Shown here in pieces: positions 2,834 to 14,734 of a stretch of 64,000 nucleotides of DNA (positions are counted from its first letter, which is position 1; the number at the start of each line of letters is the position of its first letter). The notes below the pieces were generated by a model. The model worked only from the letters and a program-made list of their open reading frames with translations, was not told where the DNA came from and ran no database searches. Source of the stretch: Prosthecobacter debontii (GTDB lineage Bacteria; Verrucomicrobiota; Verrucomicrobiia; Verrucomicrobiales; Verrucomicrobiaceae); the NCBI RefSeq assembly GCF_900167535.1, contig NZ_FUYE01000002.1, positions 248,001 through 312,000 of the forward strand, in the 5' to 3' direction. A program made the position numbers and the translations under genes.

Positions 2834-3349
2834 GAGGCAGGAAAATCGGGGAAAGCTTGTCAACATACGCCGCCACGCCCCCCTTTGCTATCAGGGAAAC
2901 ACAATCTCAGGTCTCGGAAGCCCCCGCCTCGCTCCCATTCGCTTCTCCACATACTCCCCAGGCTGAGCCGCACCTCGTTCATCCCCTCAACTTCAGCACA
3001 AGGCACTTGTTCCCGTTTTTACACACTTTTCATTTTGTCGTCAAAGCCCACCCAAATCCGCCCCATAGCCTTGGCACTCAACTTGTTAGACCGACACTAA
3101 ATCCAGTGCCTTTTGTCTCAAAAAATCCCATTGGGGTCCATCCCTCTCGATTTCTCGACCACCGATCACGCTTGGGTGATCAAGCCAGCCTCGTGATGAT
3201 TTCATGCCTCAACCCGATGGAATAACGAGAAAGAATGCAAGCGGTTTTGGCTTCACCCTATCCCTCGATAGGCGGGTTATCCGGCCACCTGTTCTTCACC
3301 CAAGCCTCAGCCACAGCCAGACAAACCCGCCCTACCGCCCAACCCATCC
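2834..3349. other. Gene-free stretch upstream of the DUF1552 gene
   Basis: About 515 bp without a convincing gene; the ORFs here are short or antisense extensions. It must hold the DUF1552 promoter, though I could not place -35/-10 boxes with confidence. A small palindrome GATCAC-N6-GTGATC lies at 3164-3181. A copy of the hairpin repeat family occupies 3269-3335 and is listed separately. Confidence 0.6.
3269..3335. repeat. Hairpin repeat, copy 1 (right of the methyltransferase/zor block on the minus strand)
   Basis: An imperfect inverted repeat. The left arm GGCGGGTTATCCGGCC is at 3271-3286 and the right arm GCCAGACAAACCCGCC is at about 3316-3332, separated by some 29 bases. The same arms recur at 8678-8745, 8890-8955 and, in the opposite orientation, at 9661-9730. 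The arms would form a stable stem in RNA or single-stranded DNA. No ORF is present, so a REP/BIME-like or MITE-like non-autonomous element is the best description. Confidence 0.75.
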
Positions 3350-3964
3350 TCAGCCCTTTTGCACGATCAAATACACGTGCAGCTCTGGGTGCTGATCATA
3401 CTCCAGATGACGGCACACACAGCCCTGGCTCGCCACAATCTCCAGCAGCTTCGGAATCCCCAGCGCCGCGTGATACATCGGCTGCCCCATCATCTCATTG
3501 AAAATCTCCCCCGGCTCATCCACACCGCCACTGGTGAAGATCAAAACCCCACCCGCCTTCAAACCTTCACACAGCTTTCTCAAGATCCCCTCATGCTCGC
3601 TCAACGGCGCATGCCAGATGCTGTCCCAGGCCGAGATGAAATCATAGCGCTCCGGCAACTCCCACGTGCAGATATCCACCTGATGAAACGTCACCTCTGG
3701 ATGCCGTTCCCGCGCCAGCGTCACCATCGCGGCGGAAACATCCAGGCCCTCCACCTCAAAGCCTTCGGTGAGCAACAGGTCGATGATTCGCCCACTGCTG
3801 CCACACCCCACATCCAGCGCCTTGCGCAAGTCCTGTCCCTCCGCCTCCCGCACAAACTGCAACGCCCGCCAATGCTGCGCGATCCCATTCGATGGATTGA
3901 AATCCCCGCCGCTCCAGAACGAAGCGATCCGGTCATACGTCGCTGCGATTTGTTGAGGGGTCAT
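3350..3964 (-). CDS. Class I SAM-dependent methyltransferase
   Basis: A 204-residue protein from the ATG at 3964 (MTPQQIAATYDRIASFW). SAM-binding motif I is ALDVGCGSSGRIIDLLL (about residues 49-65), followed by the acidic strand end VEGLDVSAAM and the later VTFHQVDICTW. A Rossmann-like strand GLKAGGVLIFTSGG follows. The methyl acceptor is unknown; the fold is of the small-molecule type (TehB/UbiE-like) and there is no DNA-methylase NPPY motif. It lies 176 bp downstream of zorC on the same strand and is enclosed with the zor genes between hairpin-repeat copies, but the gap argues against tight operon membership. Confidence 0.85.
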   Translation of the reverse strand: MTPQQIAATYDRIASFWSGGDFNPSNGIAQHWRALQFVREAEGQDLRKALDVGCGSSGRIIDLLLTEGFEVEGLDVSAAMVTLARERHPEVTFHQVDICTWELPERYDFISAWDSIWHAPLSEHEGILRKLCEGLKAGGVLIFTSGGVDEPGEIFNEMMGQPMYHAALGIPKLLEIVASQGCVCRHLEYDQHPELHVYLIVQKG

Positions 3965-4140
3965 GGAAACAAGGGGGACGAGTCTTGAAACTAAACGTGA
4001 TGGCTCCAATCCGACAAGTCGTAGAGCGGAGTTAAGGGGGCGCGGCTCAAAAACGTTCGTTCCCCCAGAGATGATGCAGCCGCAAGTCAAAGCATCCTGA
4101 AGTCAAATCTCGAAGGGGCTGTCTGAGTTAAATCTCAGGT

Positions 4141-5580
4141 CTAGACGCTATAGTCACTGAGAGTGAGCCGGACACCTGTTTGATCGAAAATCAAAGACTC
4201 GAAATCGCTTTGCCAAAGGTAGGCATCCGAACCGTGATGAGATTTCGACACATCCTTCAAAAGGTTAAGGCTTGAGCGATCATAGATGGCTGCATCTGCA
4301 GGCGGCTTTTGCTTATTGGATGGCAGGAAAAAGTAGGCCGCTCCATGGTGGCTGAGGTCAATCAGCATCAGCTCATGGATTTGGAGTAAAAGCCCGCATT
4401 GGTCGGGATCCTGAGATTGGAGTTCTGCCATCGCGTCACCAAACTTTTTCCTGAGGGACGGCTCCCCATAGGCTTGGATGATACCATGACCGAGCAGCGC
4501 ACGAGCGGTCTTCACGACGCCTCGCTTATAGTAGGCTAGCCAAAAGTGACGGCGATAGCGCCACTGCCTCCTCATGGTGATGCTACCCGTCTCCTCCGCG
4601 TATTGACCCACCCGCTGGAAAAAGTCTTCCATGACATCCAGGATCATCCAGCGCTCCAGAATTTGCCGACTTAGAGAGGAAGCTGCACTCCAGTATCCTG
4701 TCCACCCCTCGGGCACGGACCCAAACCAACCCTCCAGCGTCCTTTTCTGAATCTCTTTCTGAAGCTCGAGCTCGGAGGGATTAAAGGCCGCCCAGGGTTC
4801 TAAGAGGCCATTGATGACGGCTGCGCACAGCACTTCGTCCCATGCAGATGACTCGCCGAACAAAAGGTTTTTCCATTCACGGATACGTTCCAGATGAAGG
4901 AAATCGTAGCCCTGGGCAGCAGGGATGGGAATATTCAGATAGGCGAGAAAGGCCTGCCGTGACAGGTCAGCAGCCTGAGCGCGCGCAGTCAGAAACCCCG
5001 CCTCGGCCAACACACTCCTCAATGACATATCCGGCGAGTTTTGCAGCCGACATGCTAGCTTTACGGGAAAATCATCGGGGGAAAAAAGGTCCCAATCGCG
5101 ATCCCGACGTCGCCACACATCGATGTGCTCATGGCCCTCCACGTCACACCATTGCCTCAGCGTGTCTCCCAGCCATGCACGGCCCTCTTCATTGGCGTCG
5201 GAGGCTTCTGTATAAGCCGTAGCCAGAGTCTCAATCCAGCTAGCAAGGGACACGCTCATGGAGGCTGCCCAGGCAATCCCTTCTCTCAAACGAGGGTACT
5301 CAATGGCCTGCTGCCCTTCGTAAGTCCTCCACAATAGGGCAGGAACTTGCTTCCAGATATCCAACGACAGCGCTCTGGCGGGTTGATCGGAACCGAGCCA
5401 TGCTTGCACTTGCGACCAGACGCCATTTACCTCAGCTTCGGATAGAGGTGGAGGCACTGGCACACTCCCCATTTTCACCGCCAACATTCTGAGGCGGTCC
5501 AACTCTGGCGGCGCGTGCATTTGGACGGTCGCTGCGTGGCTTTGAGCGACTGCTTGGAGTGATTTCACCACCGCACTCAT
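4141..5580 (-). CDS. zorC: ZorC-like protein with a degenerate EH signature (Zorya-like defence)
   Basis: A 479-residue cytoplasmic-looking protein without signal peptide or membrane segment, rich in Trp and Leu helices. In type I Zorya, ZorC carries the EH_Signature domain near its C terminus. Here the corresponding block is RRQWRYRRHFWLAYY (about 338-351), then LLLQIHELMLIDLSHHGAAYFF (about 397-418), with Asp408 where I expect the signature Glu and His411 as the His. The start codon overlaps the zorB stop by 4 bp. Assignment rests on this motif and on the operon partners, not on a database hit. In characterised type I systems ZorC binds DNA and works with ZorD, which is not in this window. 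Confidence 0.65.
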   Translation of the reverse strand: MSAVVKSLQAVAQSHAATVQMHAPPELDRLRMLAVKMGSVPVPPPLSEAEVNGVWSQVQAWLGSDQPARALSLDIWKQVPALLWRTYEGQQAIEYPRLREGIAWAASMSVSLASWIETLATAYTEASDANEEGRAWLGDTLRQWCDVEGHEHIDVWRRRDRDWDLFSPDDFPVKLACRLQNSPDMSLRSVLAEAGFLTARAQAADLSRQAFLAYLNIPIPAAQGYDFLHLERIREWKNLLFGESSAWDEVLCAAVINGLLEPWAAFNPSELELQKEIQKRTLEGWFGSVPEGWTGYWSAASSLSRQILERWMILDVMEDFFQRVGQYAEETGSITMRRQWRYRRHFWLAYYKRGVVKTARALLGHGIIQAYGEPSLRKKFGDAMAELQSQDPDQCGLLLQIHELMLIDLSHHGAAYFFLPSNKQKPPADAAIYDRSSLNLLKDVSKSHHGSDAYLWQSDFESLIFDQTGVRLTLSDYSV

Positions 5581-6527
5581 GGCTTTACGGTTTCGATCGT
5601 TTCCGTCGCTCTCTTGAGCTTAAGCTCCATCTCTGCGATTTCCGCTTGGCTTGGATAGGCCATGACAAAACGTATGTCGATACGACGGTTTTTCTGCCTT
5701 CCTTCCAGGGTCGAATTGTCCGCGACAGGTCGTTGCTCCCCGTAGCCGCTGATGCCGATGACAGCTCGATGTTGGTGATTCTGCAGAGCCTGAAGCTCTG
5801 GCTGGGAGCCTATTAACGCATTGAATGTGCTGATCGCCCGTGAAGATGAAAGTTGCCAGTTGCTCGGAAACTCGGGAGTCCGGATGGGGACGTTGTCGGT
5901 GTGGCCTTCGATATAAATGGCCTCCCATTTCAAGGGACTGTCTCCACAGCCTTTGCGAGCCACCGGCAGCATCTCTTGCGCCAGCAGGGCGATGGCGCGT
6001 TCACCTGTGGGTTGCAGCTTGGCCTCGCTCGTTTGGAATAAAAGTTCTTCCGGCAGTCTGAGAATGCCGTTGGTTTCATCGAGCTCAACCGCTAGGTTTT
6101 GCTCCTCTAACTTGCTGACAAGACGCTGCAGCTCTTCTTTGCGGAGCTGCTCTCGCTCTCGAAGCACTTTAGCCAGCGCGTCCAAAGCTTCCTGAACCTG
6201 CTGAGCTTTTCCATGCGCTTGGGTCGCTTCCTCCTTGGCTGCTTGCGCTGCTTGCCTCGCTTCATTAGCCTCGCTTTCAGCCAGTGCAGCATTCTTCAGT
6301 GCTTTCAATGTTTCGCTTTCCGCCTGAGCCGCATTCTTCAGCGCCTTCAACGTTTCGTTTTTAGCCGTTTCGAGCTCAGCTGCCTTCAGATGGTAATGCA
6401 GCGCCAATGCCGTCGTCAGAATGACAAAGACAAATAAAACCCCTGTCATGAGATCACTGAGCGAAACGAAGTAATTCTCTTCTTCATCTTCCATCAGCAG
6501 CGAAGAGGGTTCACGGCGAGGCTTCAT
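5577..6527 (-). CDS. zorB: ZorB-like MotB/OmpA-type stator subunit
   Basis: A 316-residue protein with a short cytoplasmic N terminus and one membrane helix (about 21-43, FVSLSDLMTGVLFVFVILTT) containing Asp25 at the position of the proton-carrying Asp of MotB/ExbD/ZorB. A charged coiled coil follows (about 48-145), then an OmpA/MotB peptidoglycan-binding domain (about 150-290) with IEGHTDNVPI (D211) and EGRQKNRRIDIRF (R281/R282). In Zorya, ZorA and ZorB form a proton-driven motor anchored to peptidoglycan. The start overlaps the zorA stop by 4 bp and the stop overlaps the zorC start by 4 bp, which indicates translational coupling. The coiled coil contains a 14-residue tandem duplication. Confidence 0.85.
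   Translation of the reverse strand: MKPRREPSSLLMEDEEENYFVSLSDLMTGVLFVFVILTTALALHYHLKAAELETAKNETLKALKNAAQAESETLKALKNAALAESEANEARQAAQAAKEEATQAHGKAQQVQEALDALAKVLREREQLRKEELQRLVSKLEEQNLAVELDETNGILRLPEELLFQTSEAKLQPTGERAIALLAQEMLPVARKGCGDSPLKWEAIYIEGHTDNVPIRTPEFPSNWQLSSSRAISTFNALIGSQPELQALQNHQHRAVIGISGYGEQRPVADNSTLEGRQKNRRIDIRFVMAYPSQAEIAEMELKLKRATETIETVKP
6289..6372 (-). repeat. 42-bp in-frame tandem duplication inside zorB
   Basis: Two neighbouring copies begin GCATTCTTCAG on the plus strand at 6289 and 6331, a period of 42 bp. They encode the 14-residue unit ETLKALKNAA(Q/L)AES twice in the coiled-coil linker between the membrane helix and the peptidoglycan-binding domain. The copies differ at several mostly silent positions, so the duplication is not brand new. 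Confidence 0.85.
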
Positions 6528-8272
6528 GCGGGAGTCGTGGTGGAGATGAGTGCCTGATCCGATGCCTTTCCAGAAGCCGCCTTTGCGCCCTGAGGCAGTT
6601 GCTGCTGAAGATCACTCTGGGTCTTCAACGTCTCCGTGAAACGGATGATGTTCGCGTTCATGGCATCCATGCTGCGCGACAACGCATCGGTCGAGTCTTG
6701 CCAGACCGTGCGCTGGACACGCAGTTCCTCCTGACTGCTCGAAAGGTCTTTGATGTTCGTGGAAAGCCCCCCGAGGGCCATCACCATGGCCCCTTGCCAC
6801 TCTTGACTGAATTCCTGCAGCTTTGCGGCATAGCTAGGGAAAACCTCACTCACACTCTCAACCGCACCCGCCAAATGAGTATCGATGGTTAGAATCAGAC
6901 CCGACAATTCTTCCCACCGTTTAACCACCGTTTCGTTCTGAGAATGAATGCGGGCCACCATTTCTGAAATGGTGTTGGCCGAGCTTGTCAGGTCCTTCGC
7001 CGCCGCTCGCGCGGGCTCCAACGCGTCGGGTAATGTGGCAAATTTCAAAGCCACCTCTTGAGCGGAGTTTGATGCCGCCGCAAGTGATGTCTCAATCGGC
7101 TTCACCGCCGTCGTAAAGGCATGGGCAATCGACGTCGTATTGTCCTGAACCAGCCCGACTAAGGCATTGAACTCCTCGGGCAGATTCGCCAAGGCCTTGC
7201 TGACCGCCTCCAGCCGTTCAGTCACGGACTTCAAATGGACCTCCGTGGCCTTGTGCAGCCCCTTGGTCATTTGTTGGGCAATTTCCGAGAATGCCTTCTC
7301 ATTCACCTGACTTAGGCTTTCTGCCACCTGACTGCCCATGGAGCCCATTTTTGAGCCCAGATCATCCCCAAGTTGCCCGAGTTTACCCCCCAGACCTGCC
7401 GCGACAGCCTCAAGCCTCTCACACAAGATTCGGTGCTGATCCACTCGGGTGGATTGAGTATCGGTGAAGCCATTCATGAGCAAACCCATTTGGTTCGCCG
7501 TGGTCGCCTGATACCCTTCGAGCTTTCGCAGAAGCTGGATGGATTCGTAGTGAAGCTCCTCCGCACTCACCACCCGCACACAGCGCCCCAGATCCCGGGC
7601 CAACAAGCCCACCACGCGCTCCATTTGCTGGCTGCGATTGCGAAGCCAAATGCCATACAAGACGGAGAGTAAGACCGCCGTGAGCGATGACCAAAACTTG
7701 CTGGACGCTGCCACCAAAAGATCGCGCAAAGCAAGGCTGCTGTCCCCATCTGTTCCTGGAGTGATCACTAAACTCGCATTGCCGATGACCACCGCCAAAC
7801 CCAAGAACGTGATGCACAGCCCCACACCGACCAAGTAGTTGGGGAAAGCACGGTATAACAACAATTGCACATTATGCTCCATCATGTGATCGGAAAGCCG
7901 AATCACGTCTGCGGGCACCACGGATGTCTCCAGACGCACACGGTCAGAGCCTTCGTTTTGAACCGGTTCACAGCGCCTTAGAAAAGCGCTGGTTTGACGT
8001 GCCAGAGGCTCATCTTCTGAAAGCTGAGAGAGCTCTTCCTGAGCGGCCTCAAATTTTTCCGACGCATAGTGCTGCCAACGCGTTTTCTCTTCCTTGATAG
8101 ACAAAGCCGAAGAAAGACCAGAAGCACTACGAATTTTTTGGATGATTGTTTCCAATCGTCTGCCATGCAGCCACCAGCGATAAGCGACTGTTGCGGTTAC
8201 GACAAACAACCCGCTCGAGATAATCCATGGCGTGTGGGGATTGTTAAAGATGCGCGTAAGCCATTCCATCAT
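6524..8272 (-). CDS. zorA: ZorA-like MotA/TolQ-type motor subunit with a long helical tail
   Basis: A 582-residue membrane protein. Hydrophobic segments lie at about 15-34, 146-168 (LVGVGLCITFLGLAVVIG) and 193-210 (FWSSLTAVLLSVLYGIWL); the last two have the MotA/TolQ/ExbB proton-channel look. The remaining 370 residues are a predicted soluble helical tail rich in Ala, Leu, Gln and Ser, as in ZorA, where a long intracellular tail is needed for defence. It is the first gene of an operon whose members overlap by 4 bp (zorA-zorB-zorC). Type I ZorA proteins can be longer, so this one may have a shorter tail. A generic MotA/TolQ-like transporter subunit is the alternative if the ZorC call is wrong. 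Confidence 0.8.
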   Translation of the reverse strand: MMEWLTRIFNNPHTPWIISSGLFVVTATVAYRWWLHGRRLETIIQKIRSASGLSSALSIKEEKTRWQHYASEKFEAAQEELSQLSEDEPLARQTSAFLRRCEPVQNEGSDRVRLETSVVPADVIRLSDHMMEHNVQLLLYRAFPNYLVGVGLCITFLGLAVVIGNASLVITPGTDGDSSLALRDLLVAASSKFWSSLTAVLLSVLYGIWLRNRSQQMERVVGLLARDLGRCVRVVSAEELHYESIQLLRKLEGYQATTANQMGLLMNGFTDTQSTRVDQHRILCERLEAVAAGLGGKLGQLGDDLGSKMGSMGSQVAESLSQVNEKAFSEIAQQMTKGLHKATEVHLKSVTERLEAVSKALANLPEEFNALVGLVQDNTTSIAHAFTTAVKPIETSLAAASNSAQEVALKFATLPDALEPARAAAKDLTSSANTISEMVARIHSQNETVVKRWEELSGLILTIDTHLAGAVESVSEVFPSYAAKLQEFSQEWQGAMVMALGGLSTNIKDLSSSQEELRVQRTVWQDSTDALSRSMDAMNANIIRFTETLKTQSDLQQQLPQGAKAASGKASDQALISTTTPA

Positions 8273-8500
8273 GCAACTTTACCAGAGTCTTGCATTTTGC
8301 CAATGGCGGAAAGCTAGAATATTCAAATCACTACAATAATTATAATTTCAGACTTGGTTTGATGAGGGTCCTTGGCCCATTTGGTTCAATCTCGATCAGA
8401 TAGGCGTCCGAACTTCGGCATGGCCTAAAAAAATCCAAGACTGAACCTCATTCCCTTGAGACACGGGGTCATCTTGCCACAAGGTCCCTCAGTAAAAGTC
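8273..8500. other. Upstream region of the zorABC operon
   Basis: About 230 bp without a gene. The part nearest zorA is AT-rich (8310-8350, including TTATAATTAT-like runs on the minus strand), so the operon promoter is probably here, but no clear pair of promoter boxes could be fixed. The hairpin-repeat array begins directly beyond it at 8501. Confidence 0.45.
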
Positions 8501-8955
8501 TCATCCACAGCCGGACAAACCACGCCCTACATCCCCGCAAATGAGCCCACCCGTAGGGCGGGTTTGTTCTGCTGGCGAGACTGTAACCTTCTCTCCTCTC
8601 CGATGCAGAATAACCCGCCTGTTTAGGGGATGTCGAAAGGTAGTGAATGCTCGAAGGCAAAGCCACATCTCTTGATAGGCGGGTAATCCGGCCACGACGA
8701 CTCACGATGAAAAGGGAATCCACAGCCGGACAAACCACGCCCTACATCCCACATTCGCCATCTACCCGTAGGGCGGGTTTGTTCTGCTAGCGAGACTGCC
8801 ACCTTCTCCCACTCCGTTGCAGAATAACCCGCCTGTTGGAGCGTGTTGAACGGTCATTGATGATCGAAGACCGAGCCACATCCCTCAAAGGCGGGTTATC
8901 CGGCCACAGGACGTTCACTCGAAATCTCATCCACAGCCGGACAAACCCACCCTAC
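8501..8955. repeat. Array of hairpin repeats organised as about 2.1 tandem copies of a 215-bp unit
   Basis: CACAGCCGGACAAAC starts at 8506, 8721 and 8932, and CCGTAGGGCGGGTTTGTTC starts at 8551 and 8766, so the period is 215 bp, slipping to 211 in the last copy. Each unit holds two different hairpins. Type B pairs GGCGGGTTTGTTCTGC with GCAGAATAACCCGCC (8553-8619 and 8768-8833). Type A pairs GGCGGGTTATCCGGC with GCCGGACAAACC(A)CGCC (8678-8745 and 8890-8955). No long ORF lies inside. Type A also occurs at 3269-3335 and 9661-9730. Confidence 0.9.
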
Positions 8956-8978
8956 GGACGATCACCCCATCTCCTACC

Positions 8979-9550
8979 TCAGGCCTCCTTCTGGGAACGC
9001 AACTCCCACTCCCGTTTCAACAGCGCAAAGACAAACTCGCTCTCCCAAGAGCTCTTGTACCAACGGTGCTCAATGTGGTGGGCCTCCTGCCGGAAACCCA
9101 GCCGCCGGAACAGGGAGGCGGCGGCATGATTTTGATCGCTCGTGATCGCGATTACCCGATGCAGGCCCAGAGTGTCAAACCCATACTCCAGCAGGCACTC
9201 CAGCGCCTCCATGGCGTAACCCTGGCCCTGATGACTGGGAGCCAAGGTGCCCCAAACTCCATTTGATACGGTTCGTCCTGCAAGCAGTGCAGCCCGCAAT
9301 CGCCGATCAGGACGTTCGTCGCCCGCTCGACCACGGCCACCTGAAACCAGGTCCCCGGAATCCCAGGCTCGGCGTGATCCTGGCTTTCAATGAGCCGCCG
9401 TGCATCCTCCGGGCCGAACGACTCCCACCCCTGATATCGCGCCACCTCCGGCAGCGACCGGTAGTTGCAAAGCGCGTCCCCATTGTCACGCTGCAACCGG
9501 CGAAGGAACAGGCGCGGCGTGGATAAAAAGCTGGGGAAGATGTGGCTCAT
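8979..9550 (-). pseudogene. GNAT-family N-acetyltransferase split by a frameshift
   Basis: Two overlapping minus-strand frames together make one RimJ/RimL-type GNAT protein. The N-terminal part starts at ATG 9550 (MSHIFPSFLSTPRLFLRRL) and reads to YQMEFG. The C-terminal part continues in another frame with TLAPSHQGQGYAMEALECLLEYGFDTLGLHRVIA and FRRLGFRQEAHH, which holds the acetyl-CoA-binding Q/RxxGxG/A motif. The switch falls at the run of four C (plus strand 9250-9253); one more base would restore EFGGTLAPSHQG. The gene is therefore either a recent pseudogene or carries a homopolymer sequencing error. The substrate is unknown; the family acetylates ribosomal proteins or small molecules. Confidence 0.85.
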
Positions 9551-9660
9551 CGCGATGGCTCGGCCTCAAGTTTCAAAATCGTTTTCACCTGACCGAAAAC
9601 CTCGCTCAGGAACTGACGGATTATCTTGTGATTGGGAGGCATGGGAGGATTTCTGCGCTC

Positions 9661-9730
9661 GTAGGGCGGGTGTGTCCGGCATCGATAGACTTCTTTACAA
9701 GGTAGATCAAGCCGCCGGATTACCCGCCTT
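9661..9730. repeat. Hairpin repeat, copy in inverted orientation
   Basis: GTAGGGCGGGTGTGTCCGGC (9661-9680) and GCCGGATTACCCGCC (9714-9728) form the same type A stem as at 3269 and 8890, but with the long arm first, so the element is inverted relative to those copies. The loop is about 33 bases. It lies in the 240 bp between the GNAT pseudogene and the small ORFs, where I see nothing else. Confidence 0.75.
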
Positions 9731-9794
9731 TTGGACGTGTTTGGCAGGCAAAACCTGGCAGTTCTGGATTCATGTTTTCAGAAGATCGAAGAGT

Positions 9795-9980
9795 TCATTC
9801 CGGCCCATAAGCCTGCCGGAGTTTGCGGTTCTTGATCTGGCCGCGCTGGCAGTAGGAGCAACCGCAAGGCTTCCGCCCATCCGAGTGTGATTCGGGATAG
9901 TAGCGCCAGCCTATTATCTGCTCAGGCGTGTAAATGCGAGTGATGGCCTTCGGTTCAATGGAAACAGGAATCAGCCTCAT
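9795..9980 (-). CDS. Small Cys-containing protein of unknown function
   Basis: A 61-residue ORF (MRLIPVSIEPKAITRIYTPEQ) with a compact CGCSYCQRG motif that could bind a metal. Its ATG overlaps the TGA of the ORF at 9977-10108 in an ATGA arrangement, which supports real or formerly real coding. I do not recognise the family. It lies downstream of the Avs-like gene and may be the end of an older gene pair cut by acquisition of that gene. Confidence 0.4.
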   Translation of the reverse strand: MRLIPVSIEPKAITRIYTPEQIIGWRYYPESHSDGRKPCGCSYCQRGQIKNRKLRQAYGPE

Positions 9981-10108
9981 GCGGCAAGTCCATCGGTGAT
10001 GATTTGTTCGACACCGCCCTTGGCCGCACCGGGCAGAGGATTTTTCTTTTGTAGCAAGGCCGCCTTGTCCCGGAACTCAGCGACGATATCTGGTCGGGAG
10101 CGTTTCAC
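9977..10108 (-). CDS. Small or 5'-truncated ORF coupled to the Cys-containing protein
   Basis: The open frame reads ELVKRSRPDIVAEF then RDKAALLQKKNPLP and ends IITDGLAA at TGA 9977-9979. It has no ATG. The first possible start is GTG at 10108; the frame is closed by TAA at 10136-10138, shortly after a run of seven T on the coding strand. It could be a short GTG-initiated gene of 43 residues or the remnant of a longer one. Function unknown. Confidence 0.3.
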   Translation of the reverse strand: MKRSRPDIVAEFRDKAALLQKKNPLPGAAKGGVEQIITDGLAA

Positions 10109-10156
10109 CAGCTCCCGAAAAAAAGCTTTGTTCGGTTATCTATATAATCAATACTT

Positions 10157-13100
10157 TCATTTCCACTGATCCAGAGTTGAAGAATCTACCTCGCCTCGTA
10201 GGCAAAGTTCATCAATCAGGTCCAAAGCATGTCGCCGCAGAATTCCATCTCGATTTTCGTGATACAAACGCTTTATGACTCTGCTTGCCGTTGCAATATG
10301 AAATGAGAGGCGATCTGCATGATCTTCTACAGGCTCATCCAGTCGATTTATCAGCGACTGGATAATGTCAAAAACGACATGCGGCAATACAGATCGACTA
10401 TCAGAAATGGCCTCGATCAGATTGCTAGGCGCCCTCGTGAAAGCACGTGTGGTCACGAACTTTTTCAATACATCTTCCAACTGATTAAAATCTAAAGGAG
10501 CTCTTTTCTGACTGTGATACAGCCCCGAGCCAATAGCACGACAAACATCCAAATCAGGATCGTTCGCTAGGGTCAAGAACGTCTTAATCGTCCAAGATCG
10601 ATTCGCTTCGATGTCTAAATTATGACTCGCAATTTCTGCACACTTGGCACGAACTTTGGGATCTGTTGAATTGACCAATTTTGAAGCAATATCCACGGCG
10701 TTGAGGCCAGACACTACAGCAATACACACCAAATGAGTGCCCGCCCTGCGAACTTCAGAAAATTCCGAAGCTAACATATTTTCCAGTATTGGGCGCAATG
10801 TTGACCAATGATCACGTAAACTTGCCCTGATAAATCGGATTGACCATTGACCCGCCAAAACATGTGGATCAGGAAGGTTTTCTGTAGCCAGAATAACAAA
10901 CAACTCCACCGAAAATCTACGATGCTGTGTAGCATATGCCACTGCATAGCATATTGATGCTAATTCGGCTCTGATCACGGCATTCGGATCTCTCATCATC
11001 GCAGGGAGATGGTGTGCAATTCGCGAGACGATCGACGGGTCTTCCCAAAGTTTGACTCTCAGGACTTCCAAAGCTCGGCCACGAACACTGTTAGACGCTT
11101 GACCGAGTAAATGTTCGGCTCGCCTCCCTTCCTCGGGTTGAGAAGAAGTTAATGGTGGTAGGGCTCCTTCTATAGCGTGCTGCATCAGTATCAGAAAAGC
11201 AGTATCTGAGAGATGTTCCGATGGCACTTTTTGAAGTAACCGAAGTACATCCATAGCCCATTTTTCTCCTAGCCGGTGAAACTCCATTGCAGCTTTTTCT
11301 GCCATCTCAATCTTCAAATCCGAGCTGGCAAGTCCGTGCGCTAGGCTCTCGAGAAAGCCCTCGTTCGTCATCCCATCACATGCAGATAAGTACTCCACAA
11401 AAACGCCGGGGTTTCTTTTGATCGCATCTATCAATAGATCGCCAAACCCAGTTTCATGTCCAAACTCATACCTCCTCGGGGCATTTGCAAGCCGTGCCTT
11501 ACGGGTTACCAAAGCCTCATAGTAGTCAGCAGGTCCCCACTCCCCCAAAGCAACTTTGTTGATTGGCTTGCTTTTATAGCTTTCTACGAAATATCGACGA
11601 ACTGAGTCAAACTTTCGCTCCCACTCATCACTCTTCCTTGATCCTTGGTTAGACAATAGCTCCCGGGGAAAGGAACGAAGTAGAATCATTTGCTGATATC
11701 CTCGCCAATTTCCCAAGCATCGTTTGATTTGATCGTCAGGATGTCGGCCATGCATCTCCCGCTTTGGATAGCAGCTAAGAATGGCAGACTCTACTGACAT
11801 CAATTCTTCTTTGGAAAATCGTTTTGCGTGATTCTGAAGAATTACGCGTGCAATCAACTTGTCACCATACGTCAAAAAGAATGCTTCTTCGTCACGCGAG
11901 AGAAAGTCTATCGCAAGGGCAGTGAATTCAGCTCCTTCTCCACATAAAACGCCTGCATAAATGGTATGACAGCCATCTGAAGATGAAGATCTCAATTGCA
12001 TCAGCCACTCGCGAGCTTCCTCATGATGGGTTTTCACCATCTTTTGAAGAGCCCTCACAAGGGAACTTGAGAGAACTTGATCTGGGCTGATATACCCACT
12101 TTCTTCGTCCCCTTTCTCATCTTGAATCCACAGATGCCAAGAGTCTGGGACCTTCATAATTTCAGGAACTATGTGGGAAACAAACTCAACAGGGTTTGCA
12201 GATGCAGATGCTCCGATTTGTTCAGAATCTATTGTATGATGCTTGATCAACTCGTATTCCTGGTCACCCCATGATGCAACCCTAGCTTGGATGTAGACAG
12301 CGATCCATTCAGCCAACCAAGCAGGCTGATTTTTAGCGAGGTCTTCAAGTAATGTGTGAAAGCGTTCCTGGTATTCTTGCTGCTGATTATGGCGATCAAA
12401 ATTTTCTCGCGCTTCTGCGAGCAGCCAGTCAAAAGTTTCCCGGCTATTTCCAGCCTTAGAGAACCGTGCGAGAAAATCTAACGCAGTATCAAATTTCGAA
12501 TTTTCACGTAAAGGAGCAATAATCTGCCAAACCGTTTCCTGCTCGACATTTTGGTGCTTGTTCAAAACACGAAACAGCATACCAACCGACATCGCCCCTG
12601 CATTTTGCAGCCAGTTCGTAAAAGCCCCTGAAGACACTGATACCTTAAATAGAGGTAATGAAACAGAGAATGCGTCGAACACATGACGCGCCCAAGTCCC
12701 TCTGTTGCCCGAATCAAAATCGATCAAGCTCTGTTCAAGATAGAGTCTCAATATTTCCCACTCCTGGATAGAAGGATCTTGAACATCACACAAGACAGCA
12801 ACCAAGAGTTGCTTCAGGTGGGCTCTAACATATTTTGCTTCAAGGATTCGTTGTGCTTCATCCAAGTATTCTCCAAGGTTTTCATCTCTCAGATAGGCCA
12901 TGACCTGTCGCAACTGTCCCCGTTGAATCAGTGTTTGATCGCTTCTCAGTAAATAGGTCAAGAGCGTCTCCCCTCGCTCGTCAAAAAAGCGAGCAAAACA
13001 ATAATCAAAAAATGACTCATGACCGAAACGAATAGTGTCCTTTCCTTTGGTCAAAACTCCATTTGTAAGCATCCAGTTAATCGCTAGTGGAGAAAAGCTC

Positions 13101-14734
13101 TGGAGAGACTTTGCAGAAACCGCAAGCGGGGCATCCACACTATCGGAATGCGCAGAAGGAGCAATCGCAAGAGCTACCTTCGAGAGTTTTTCAGTGATGT
13201 TACTCAGAATTTGATGCCAAAAATTAGCCTCCCACTGGGGGAAGTTTTTGGCCATATCACTCTGCTTTTTGTCCCAGTATGCATCAAAGAGCTTTTTGGG
13301 TGTGATAATCTTGGGCAATTCCTCATCGGAAGGATGTGTTTCAATCAATACAGCAAGGTATTGTGGGATACGAAGCAACTGCTGATGCTGTTGTGGGGAA
13401 AACGATGCTGCATCCATCCCATTGCTAGAGAGTAAAGCCGCAATCTCTCCATCCGATAGCGGCTCAACTTTATAAATACCTTTGTCAGCCTCGCTCTCCT
13501 TTTGGTTACAATGCAACTTTTTCAGTCTCCCGTCATGCTTCCAATCCACTTCCCGACAAGCAATAACCAAATGGATAGACATGTGATAACGGTAGCCCCG
13601 CAACTCCTGGATCAATTCACTAGCTCTCAGAAACAGATTTCCGGTTCTACCAGAATATTCGCTAACGGCATCCAATTGATCGATAACCACCACCACATGA
13701 TCTCCGGCCGCCGCAAAAGCGACTGCTCTTGCAGGAGGAATAGTTAGGCCTAGATTTTCCTGTAGCTGGCTGGTAGTTAGTGAAGCTGGAAGATCGTCCA
13801 GACGAAAGGCGAGGACGGGCCATCTTTTTTCCTGGCACAACTCCACGATTTGCATCATCACCGCACTTTTGCCACCACCAGGAGAACCGAGGACCACAAT
13901 ATCCTCTCCCATTTCAGACGCGGCCATCACCTCCACAATATCAGTGGCGATTTTACGCGGCAGCGGTGGCTGAATGAGTTTATCACGAATACCATCCACA
14001 TAAGAACGGGTTTGCCGTTCGAGCCGCTCGATCACTCGATGATCACCGAAATATGGACTCCGCCTAACTCCTTTCGTGGCTAGCCAATTCCACAAATCGC
14101 TGCTTCGCACCTTTTTATGCAAGTGTGTAAAACAGAAATCTCGTAAATGAGTGTGGGCGTCAACTGCATCCCCATCCACCAAATATTTCAAGATATGCAG
14201 GCAAGAGCTTTCGACTTCTTTTTCGTCGGCGTGGCGTGTAGAAATTCTCTGAAGACGCTCCCAGCAATCTTGCTCATCTAGCGCCCACCGTTTCAACAAC
14301 TCCTGATACCAAGCTTTGTAATCGCCAGTAATGTAATGCTCTTTAAAAAGGGCCGAATTTTCGGAGCGCCGTGCTCGTTCAGCTAAATATCCAAGCTGGA
14401 CCGCGGGTATCGTGGACACGAAATGACACCTAGCATTAGGATCCATTGAACGATTTTTGAAATCAGACAGGACGTCCTGGGCATCTAAATTGGCCATCGT
14501 CCATTCACTCCGGCTGCCAAAAGCCCTCTTTACCTGATGGTGCTCTTCACGGTCACCGATCCCCAGAATAAAATCCACTCCACTTTCACCAGGAAGCCCA
14601 CCCAAGCGAATCCAATCGGCGCGCTCATCCATCACTTCAAGGAAGTGCCGGACGGTCCAAGTAAACTCCAACGAGATACCATCTTTGAGGGCTTCTTCAC
14701 CACGCAAGCTACTCATGAGAACATTCAATCTCAT
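10157..14734 (-). CDS. Avs-like anti-phage protein: PD-(D/E)xK-like nuclease, STAND NTPase and HEAT-like repeats
   Basis: A 1,525-residue cytoplasmic protein. The N-terminal region (about 1-180) has SGVDFILGI with D54 and then EEHHQVKR with E64/Q67/K69, the D-(E/Q)xK layout of Cap4/DUF4297-type nucleases. The NTPase module (about 240-480) has Walker A GSPGGGKS (283-290), Walker B VVVVIDQLDA (D352, D355) and a sensor-like IACREVDW (R394). From about 480 to the end the sequence is helical; the last third resembles HEAT repeats (MMRDPNAVIRAELASI, STDPKVRAKCAEIAS, ANDPDLDVCRAIGSG). STAND proteins of this design sense phage proteins and then activate the nuclease. Codon use is visibly more A/T-rich than in neighbours, suggesting transfer. 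What it senses cannot be told. Confidence 0.8.
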   Translation of the reverse strand: MRLNVLMSSLRGEEALKDGISLEFTWTVRHFLEVMDERADWIRLGGLPGESGVDFILGIGDREEHHQVKRAFGSRSEWTMANLDAQDVLSDFKNRSMDPNARCHFVSTIPAVQLGYLAERARRSENSALFKEHYITGDYKAWYQELLKRWALDEQDCWERLQRISTRHADEKEVESSCLHILKYLVDGDAVDAHTHLRDFCFTHLHKKVRSSDLWNWLATKGVRRSPYFGDHRVIERLERQTRSYVDGIRDKLIQPPLPRKIATDIVEVMAASEMGEDIVVLGSPGGGKSAVMMQIVELCQEKRWPVLAFRLDDLPASLTTSQLQENLGLTIPPARAVAFAAAGDHVVVVIDQLDAVSEYSGRTGNLFLRASELIQELRGYRYHMSIHLVIACREVDWKHDGRLKKLHCNQKESEADKGIYKVEPLSDGEIAALLSSNGMDAASFSPQQHQQLLRIPQYLAVLIETHPSDEELPKIITPKKLFDAYWDKKQSDMAKNFPQWEANFWHQILSNITEKLSKVALAIAPSAHSDSVDAPLAVSAKSLQSFSPLAINWMLTNGVLTKGKDTIRFGHESFFDYCFARFFDERGETLLTYLLRSDQTLIQRGQLRQVMAYLRDENLGEYLDEAQRILEAKYVRAHLKQLLVAVLCDVQDPSIQEWEILRLYLEQSLIDFDSGNRGTWARHVFDAFSVSLPLFKVSVSSGAFTNWLQNAGAMSVGMLFRVLNKHQNVEQETVWQIIAPLRENSKFDTALDFLARFSKAGNSRETFDWLLAEARENFDRHNQQQEYQERFHTLLEDLAKNQPAWLAEWIAVYIQARVASWGDQEYELIKHHTIDSEQIGASASANPVEFVSHIVPEIMKVPDSWHLWIQDEKGDEESGYISPDQVLSSSLVRALQKMVKTHHEEAREWLMQLRSSSSDGCHTIYAGVLCGEGAEFTALAIDFLSRDEEAFFLTYGDKLIARVILQNHAKRFSKEELMSVESAILSCYPKREMHGRHPDDQIKRCLGNWRGYQQMILLRSFPRELLSNQGSRKSDEWERKFDSVRRYFVESYKSKPINKVALGEWGPADYYEALVTRKARLANAPRRYEFGHETGFGDLLIDAIKRNPGVFVEYLSACDGMTNEGFLESLAHGLASSDLKIEMAEKAAMEFHRLGEKWAMDVLRLLQKVPSEHLSDTAFLILMQHAIEGALPPLTSSQPEEGRRAEHLLGQASNSVRGRALEVLRVKLWEDPSIVSRIAHHLPAMMRDPNAVIRAELASICYAVAYATQHRRFSVELFVILATENLPDPHVLAGQWSIRFIRASLRDHWSTLRPILENMLASEFSEVRRAGTHLVCIAVVSGLNAVDIASKLVNSTDPKVRAKCAEIASHNLDIEANRSWTIKTFLTLANDPDLDVCRAIGSGLYHSQKRAPLDFNQLEDVLKKFVTTRAFTRAPSNLIEAISDSRSVLPHVVFDIIQSLINRLDEPVEDHADRLSFHIATASRVIKRLYHENRDGILRRHALDLIDELCLRGEVDSSTLDQWK

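Follow-up and report, generated by a model that had tools for sequence, protein, structure and literature searches.

Published models of type I Zorya (ZorABCD) treat ZorD as the effector and all components of the system as essential. In the type I Zorya of Serratia, removal of any component, ZorD included, ended protection, and in E. coli a type I ZorABC construct did not protect (PMC11890865). In the open-access papers searched, 'ZorABC' appeared in a single one, where it is a deletion construct, and no natural type I locus lacking zorD was found described there; the main Nature paper on type I lies outside that set, and the search is no proof of novelty.

The window analysed here, 64 000 nt of Prosthecobacter debontii (GCF_900167535.1, contig NZ_FUYE01000002.1, positions 248,001 to 312,000 of the forward strand), contains three open frames on its minus strand, with each neighbouring pair sharing exactly 4 bp. 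The zorA gene (6524–8272) encodes a MotA/ExbB-like motor subunit of 582 amino acids with a long coiled cytoplasmic tail, zorB (5577–6527) a MotB-like subunit of 316 amino acids with an OmpA domain for peptidoglycan binding and Asp25 in the membrane helix, and zorC (4141–5580) an EH-signature protein of 479 amino acids. ZorA matched the PADLOC profile ZorA1 (PDLC00595) at 7e-26 and the NCBIfam model antiphage_ZorA_1 at 8.5e-24, the latter falling under that model's cut-off. ZorB matched the ZorB1 profile at 8.1e-68 and PF00691 (OmpA) with 45 bits; its best solved relative was the type I ZorB 8vvn_B, with whose ion-carrying Asp residue Asp25 was aligned. An Asp occupies this position in 56 of 57 aligned ZorB proteins, the remaining one having a gap, and none of 35 conserved ZorB columns is lost in the window. 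ZorC matched the ZorC1 profile at 2.8e-41 and the Pfam family EH_Signature (PF15611) with 66.4 bits, well above the cut-off of 27.5. With profile scores far above chance, zorA, zorB and zorC are intact type I Zorya genes, and the reading of the three genes in the preliminary description, made from the open reading frames, was borne out by the profiles and the alignment to 8vvn.

The preliminary description had called ZorC from motif and context, a call that would have fallen had neither profiles nor structure shown similarity to ZorC; both did. No PDB sequence match was found with the window's ZorC alone; a profile of the ZorC family picked out the solved E. coli ZorC (8r68). An AlphaFold model of the window's protein had a mean pLDDT of 90.5, and a Foldseek search with it gave 8r68 as the sole confident match (E 2.3e-6, probability 1.00, TM 0.53). 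It had further been proposed that a DLSHH block stands in place of the EH signature, which did not hold up. Of 58 aligned ZorC proteins, 46 came from loci bearing zorD; among these 46, the first EH residue was Glu 36 times and Asp 10 times, and the equivalent of His448 of the second motif was present in all; the window's ZorC has Asp408 at the Glu position and keeps His448. Because Asp or Glu occurs across the family, including an Asp in the closest relative of the window, which bears zorD (L021, see below), DLSHH reads as the EH signature itself with Asp replacing Glu, a normal form of the family as judged from the alignment, and its interpretation as a lost signature was ruled out. The Asp form occurs in six of eight loci without zorD versus 10 of 46 with it; it was dropped as a hallmark of the former, as these loci are not independent and L021 combines Asp with zorD. 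Close relatives of this ZorC were not found in viral contigs, and the single match in plasmids was a distant one from Azospirillum with full zorABCD.

The absence of zorD and zorE from the surroundings, as first described, was confirmed. A tblastn search with a complete ZorD query detected no remnant in the 64 kb or in 10 kb past its low-coordinate edge (best E 0.98), and no ZorE was found among the neighbouring open reading frames scanned (3350–14734). The type II profile scored 4e-16 for the window's ZorB, compared with 8e-68 for type I. Neither ZorF nor ZorG lies beside ZorAB, the neighbours being a methyltransferase, a GNAT remnant and a STAND gene. The expected place of zorD is a junction of ~177 bp (3965–4140, no strand assigned) that runs from the zorC stop to the first methyltransferase ATG and contains no zorD fragment.

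The closest relative of the operon was found in a congener (MAG UBA11399, genome G402), whose locus L021 is a complete zorABCD with a zorD of 970 amino acids directly after zorC, overlapping its end by 4 bp. Identities between the two loci were 59% for ZorB, 44–45% for ZorC and 40–42% for ZorA, and they grouped together in the tree with a support of 1.00 and equal branches (0.52/0.52). The window's zorC stops at the residue corresponding to the end of zorC in L021. Since this closest relative is complete and its zorD overlaps zorC, the state of the window operon without zorD looks derived. The chromosomal site of L021 differs from that of the window, and only two of 48 genomes in the genus bear ZorC, P. 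debontii counted. In the dN/dS comparison of the two loci synonymous sites were saturated; at majority columns of ZorABC there were 19 lineage-specific changes in the window versus 12 in L021 (p 0.28), and the window's ZorABC is not detectably faster-evolving than that of L021.

The operon lies in a variable interval between DedA/DUF1552 and an ABC-F gene. In the same interval, G405 carries an N6-methylase, a GmrSD-N protein and a HEPN_MAE_28990 protein (L118, 14400–17507), and G188 a restriction-like gene; the site is a defence-gene hotspot. Directly after zorC, on the same strand, is a class I SAM methyltransferase (Methyltransf_25; listed as 3350–4090, with the conserved part starting from the ATG near 3964), and the homology of the congeners' methyltransferases ends at 3965. 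This gene is present in 22 of 48 congeners, and in G188 and G197 a 72–73% identical copy occupies the same hotspot without Zorya, marking it as a resident and not part of the Zorya. REP-like repeats occur on both flanks of the methyltransferase–zor segment, with one copy at 3260–3336, a cluster of three upstream of zorA at 8466–8950 and a further copy at 9660–9731 (none of them assigned a strand); there is none at the zorC end. Their 16-mer core has 19 copies in the genome at no more than one mismatch, versus 0 for a reversed control. Also upstream of zorA, a GNAT acetyltransferase (8979–9550) is split by a frameshift, its orthologue in G188 being a single frame of 196 amino acids, and 10157–14734 encodes an Avs-like STAND NTPase of 1525 amino acids with HEAT-like repeats that resembles the PADLOC candidate PDC-M54A. 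The GC content of this gene (0.467) is much below that of its surroundings and it is probably another acquired defence gene. For the zor genes we infer lateral acquisition and a loss of zorD at the methyltransferase junction. Overall, we give a probability of about 90% to a type I Zorya operon of lateral origin in a defence hotspot, whose zorD was either lost or never captured, with zorABC intact.

The recurrence of this arrangement was surveyed in the window itself, three reference loci and the 80 loci whose ZorB is closest to the window's. This yielded 58 ZorC proteins of at least 400 amino acids, 46 from loci with zorD and eight from loci without it, a locus being placed in the latter class only if 1 kb or more of sequence followed zorC; the other four were left outside the 54 loci scored. 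The eight loci (the window, L042, L045, L046, L055 and the clade L082/L098/L099) fall on six separate branches. Sequence past zorC extends over 1.1–1.5 kb in L098 and L082 and over more than 7 kb in L042, L045, L046, L055 and L099. No trace of ZorD was detected by tblastn near those outside the window, nor anywhere in six of their seven genomes, several of these being MAGs, in which absence is weaker; the seventh had a match to the SNF2 core only. Homologous loci thus do not always carry a zorD (46 of 54 do), and the reduced variant that had been suggested as one possibility is a real category. The three-gene loci of the Comamonadaceae clade L082/L098/L099, distant from the window in the tree, had dN/dS values of 0.15–0.32 for zorA, zorB and zorC, with 0.14 for the neighbouring recD, and zorABC has therefore been maintained in this clade without a zorD in the operon. 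What is new here is the occurrence of zorD-free ZorC loci on six branches, with one clade under purifying selection. In a comparison of neighbourhoods, as proposed earlier, neither the methyltransferase nor the STAND gene was seen again beside zorABC in the other loci without zorD.

Some further arrangements were observed in the course of the survey. In the Comamonadaceae-type loci, zorABC follows recD by 20–60 bp in two of three (L098, L099) and precedes acs in two of three (L082, L099). RecBCD was considered as a partner in this clade and not adopted, recD being beside zorA in only two of the three loci; it remains a lead. Two alphaproteobacterial MAGs (L051, 2109–4231; L060, 4457–6518) encode a short ZorA (261 and 269 amino acids), ZorB and then a protein of 191 or 192 amino acids whose similarity to ZorD is confined to the latter's N-terminal part (E 3e-14 and 1.5e-12), with ZorC and the helicase absent, a possible 'mini-ZorD' layout. 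In Geminicoccaceae-type loci (L022, L029, L030), ZorA/ZorB-like pairs are followed by what seem to be FIST-domain and Nudix proteins, with neither ZorC nor ZorD; ZorA was not found on the L030 contig.

Extrapolating from published type I models (PMC12904381), a three-gene system might work as follows. An ion-driven ZorA5B2 motor, anchored to peptidoglycan by ZorB, would sense the disturbance of the envelope at phage injection, and the ZorA tail would then bring ZorC to the DNA as it enters. In the absence of ZorD the system would have no dedicated nuclease, leaving ZorC to hold or block the DNA in the fashion of KwaB of Kiwa, or to expose it to housekeeping nucleases. Whether the window operon is active as such a reduced system, blocking DNA through ZorC, we regard as an even call. 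In favour are the intact frames, the full set of conserved ZorB columns, the lack of a significant excess of lineage-specific changes over L021, and the selected Comamonadaceae clade, which is not close to the window; against it stand the need for every component in Serratia, the failure of the published ZorABC construct to protect (PMC11890865) and the fate of the only other type I locus among 388 genomes sampled from the phylum. This locus (L011, 9216–13068), found in G078, a member of the same verrucomicrobial class, has intact zorA and zorB, a zorC truncated at 339 amino acids and no zorD, as decay would give. It and the E. coli result also fit a reading of the window operon as a dormant relic, in which zorD was recently deleted at the methyltransferase junction and protection was lost while zorABC has not yet decayed, and the retention of zorD in L021 also agrees with such a history. 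This is a serious alternative, if one that we would not put at even odds: all three frames have stayed open and every conserved ZorB column is kept, loci without zorD recur and include a clade under purifying selection, and no zorD fragment is left, which makes a very recent deletion less likely, other than a clean one. For the window operon a working reduced system is slightly ahead of a relic.

A third explanation, that the function of ZorD is supplied in trans by an SNF2 helicase of the host, is improbable. The genome (6.3 Mb, 99.6% complete, a draft of 56 contigs) does encode four SNF2 proteins that match ZorD with 34–38% identity, but the matches cover the helicase core only (ZorD residues ~464–914), the N-terminal half of ZorD is absent from all four and three of them score best to DpdE profiles. 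The family was found in 20 of 20 congeners examined, mostly without Zorya, and six genomes elsewhere with loci lacking zorD gave no such match at all. A ZorD encoded elsewhere in the P. debontii genome was ruled out, as only these genus-core proteins match its motor core.

Even less credit is due to an assembly artefact, in which a real zorD was dropped or misjoined. The draft state of the assembly and the REP-like repeats near the operon would allow for one, but the locus lies inside a contig of 561 kb with flanking gene order as in congeners, the zorC end is free of repeats and no piece of zorD is present on any contig, where only SNF2 helicase cores were found. Least probable of all is the replacement of ZorD as effector by the methyltransferase or the Avs-like STAND protein, as the preliminary description had considered: both genes are near, but the former is a genus gene found in the same hotspot without Zorya, the latter is a separate gene with no sign of linkage, and as neither is associated with zorABC in the other loci without zorD both were rejected.

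The six branches without zorD, together with the one selected clade, imply that the motor and ZorC can be useful alone or with host nucleases. Tentatively, and with rather more doubt than belief, we suggest that ZorABC may be a minimal Zorya that works and has evolved repeatedly, its motor and ZorC alone stopping phage DNA or passing it to host nucleases, with ZorD as a dispensable effector module. These loci offer a natural system for probing the separate and poorly understood role of ZorC, and they will be overlooked wherever annotation rules require zorD.

Among known systems, Kiwa (KwaAB) combines a membrane sensor with a DNA-binding, non-cleaving partner (PMC12904381), a likeness to the mechanism proposed for the window operon only and without homology. 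The ZorAB motor is common to the window operon and to Zorya of type II (ZorABE) and type III (ZorABFG); these differ in that type I profiles fit the window's ZorA and ZorB far better, ZorC is present and ZorE, ZorF and ZorG are not found nearby. With the type I Zorya of E. coli, Serratia and Shewanella the operon shares the ZorA, ZorB and ZorC families, the gene order and the 4-bp overlaps, as well as the Asp in the ZorB helix, the OmpA domain and the ZorC fold (8r68), but type I has the helicase-nuclease gene zorD, which both the operon and its genome lack. The loci L082/L098/L099 of the Comamonadaceae, although of a distant lineage and at another chromosomal position (acs, recD), have the same three-gene layout as the window.
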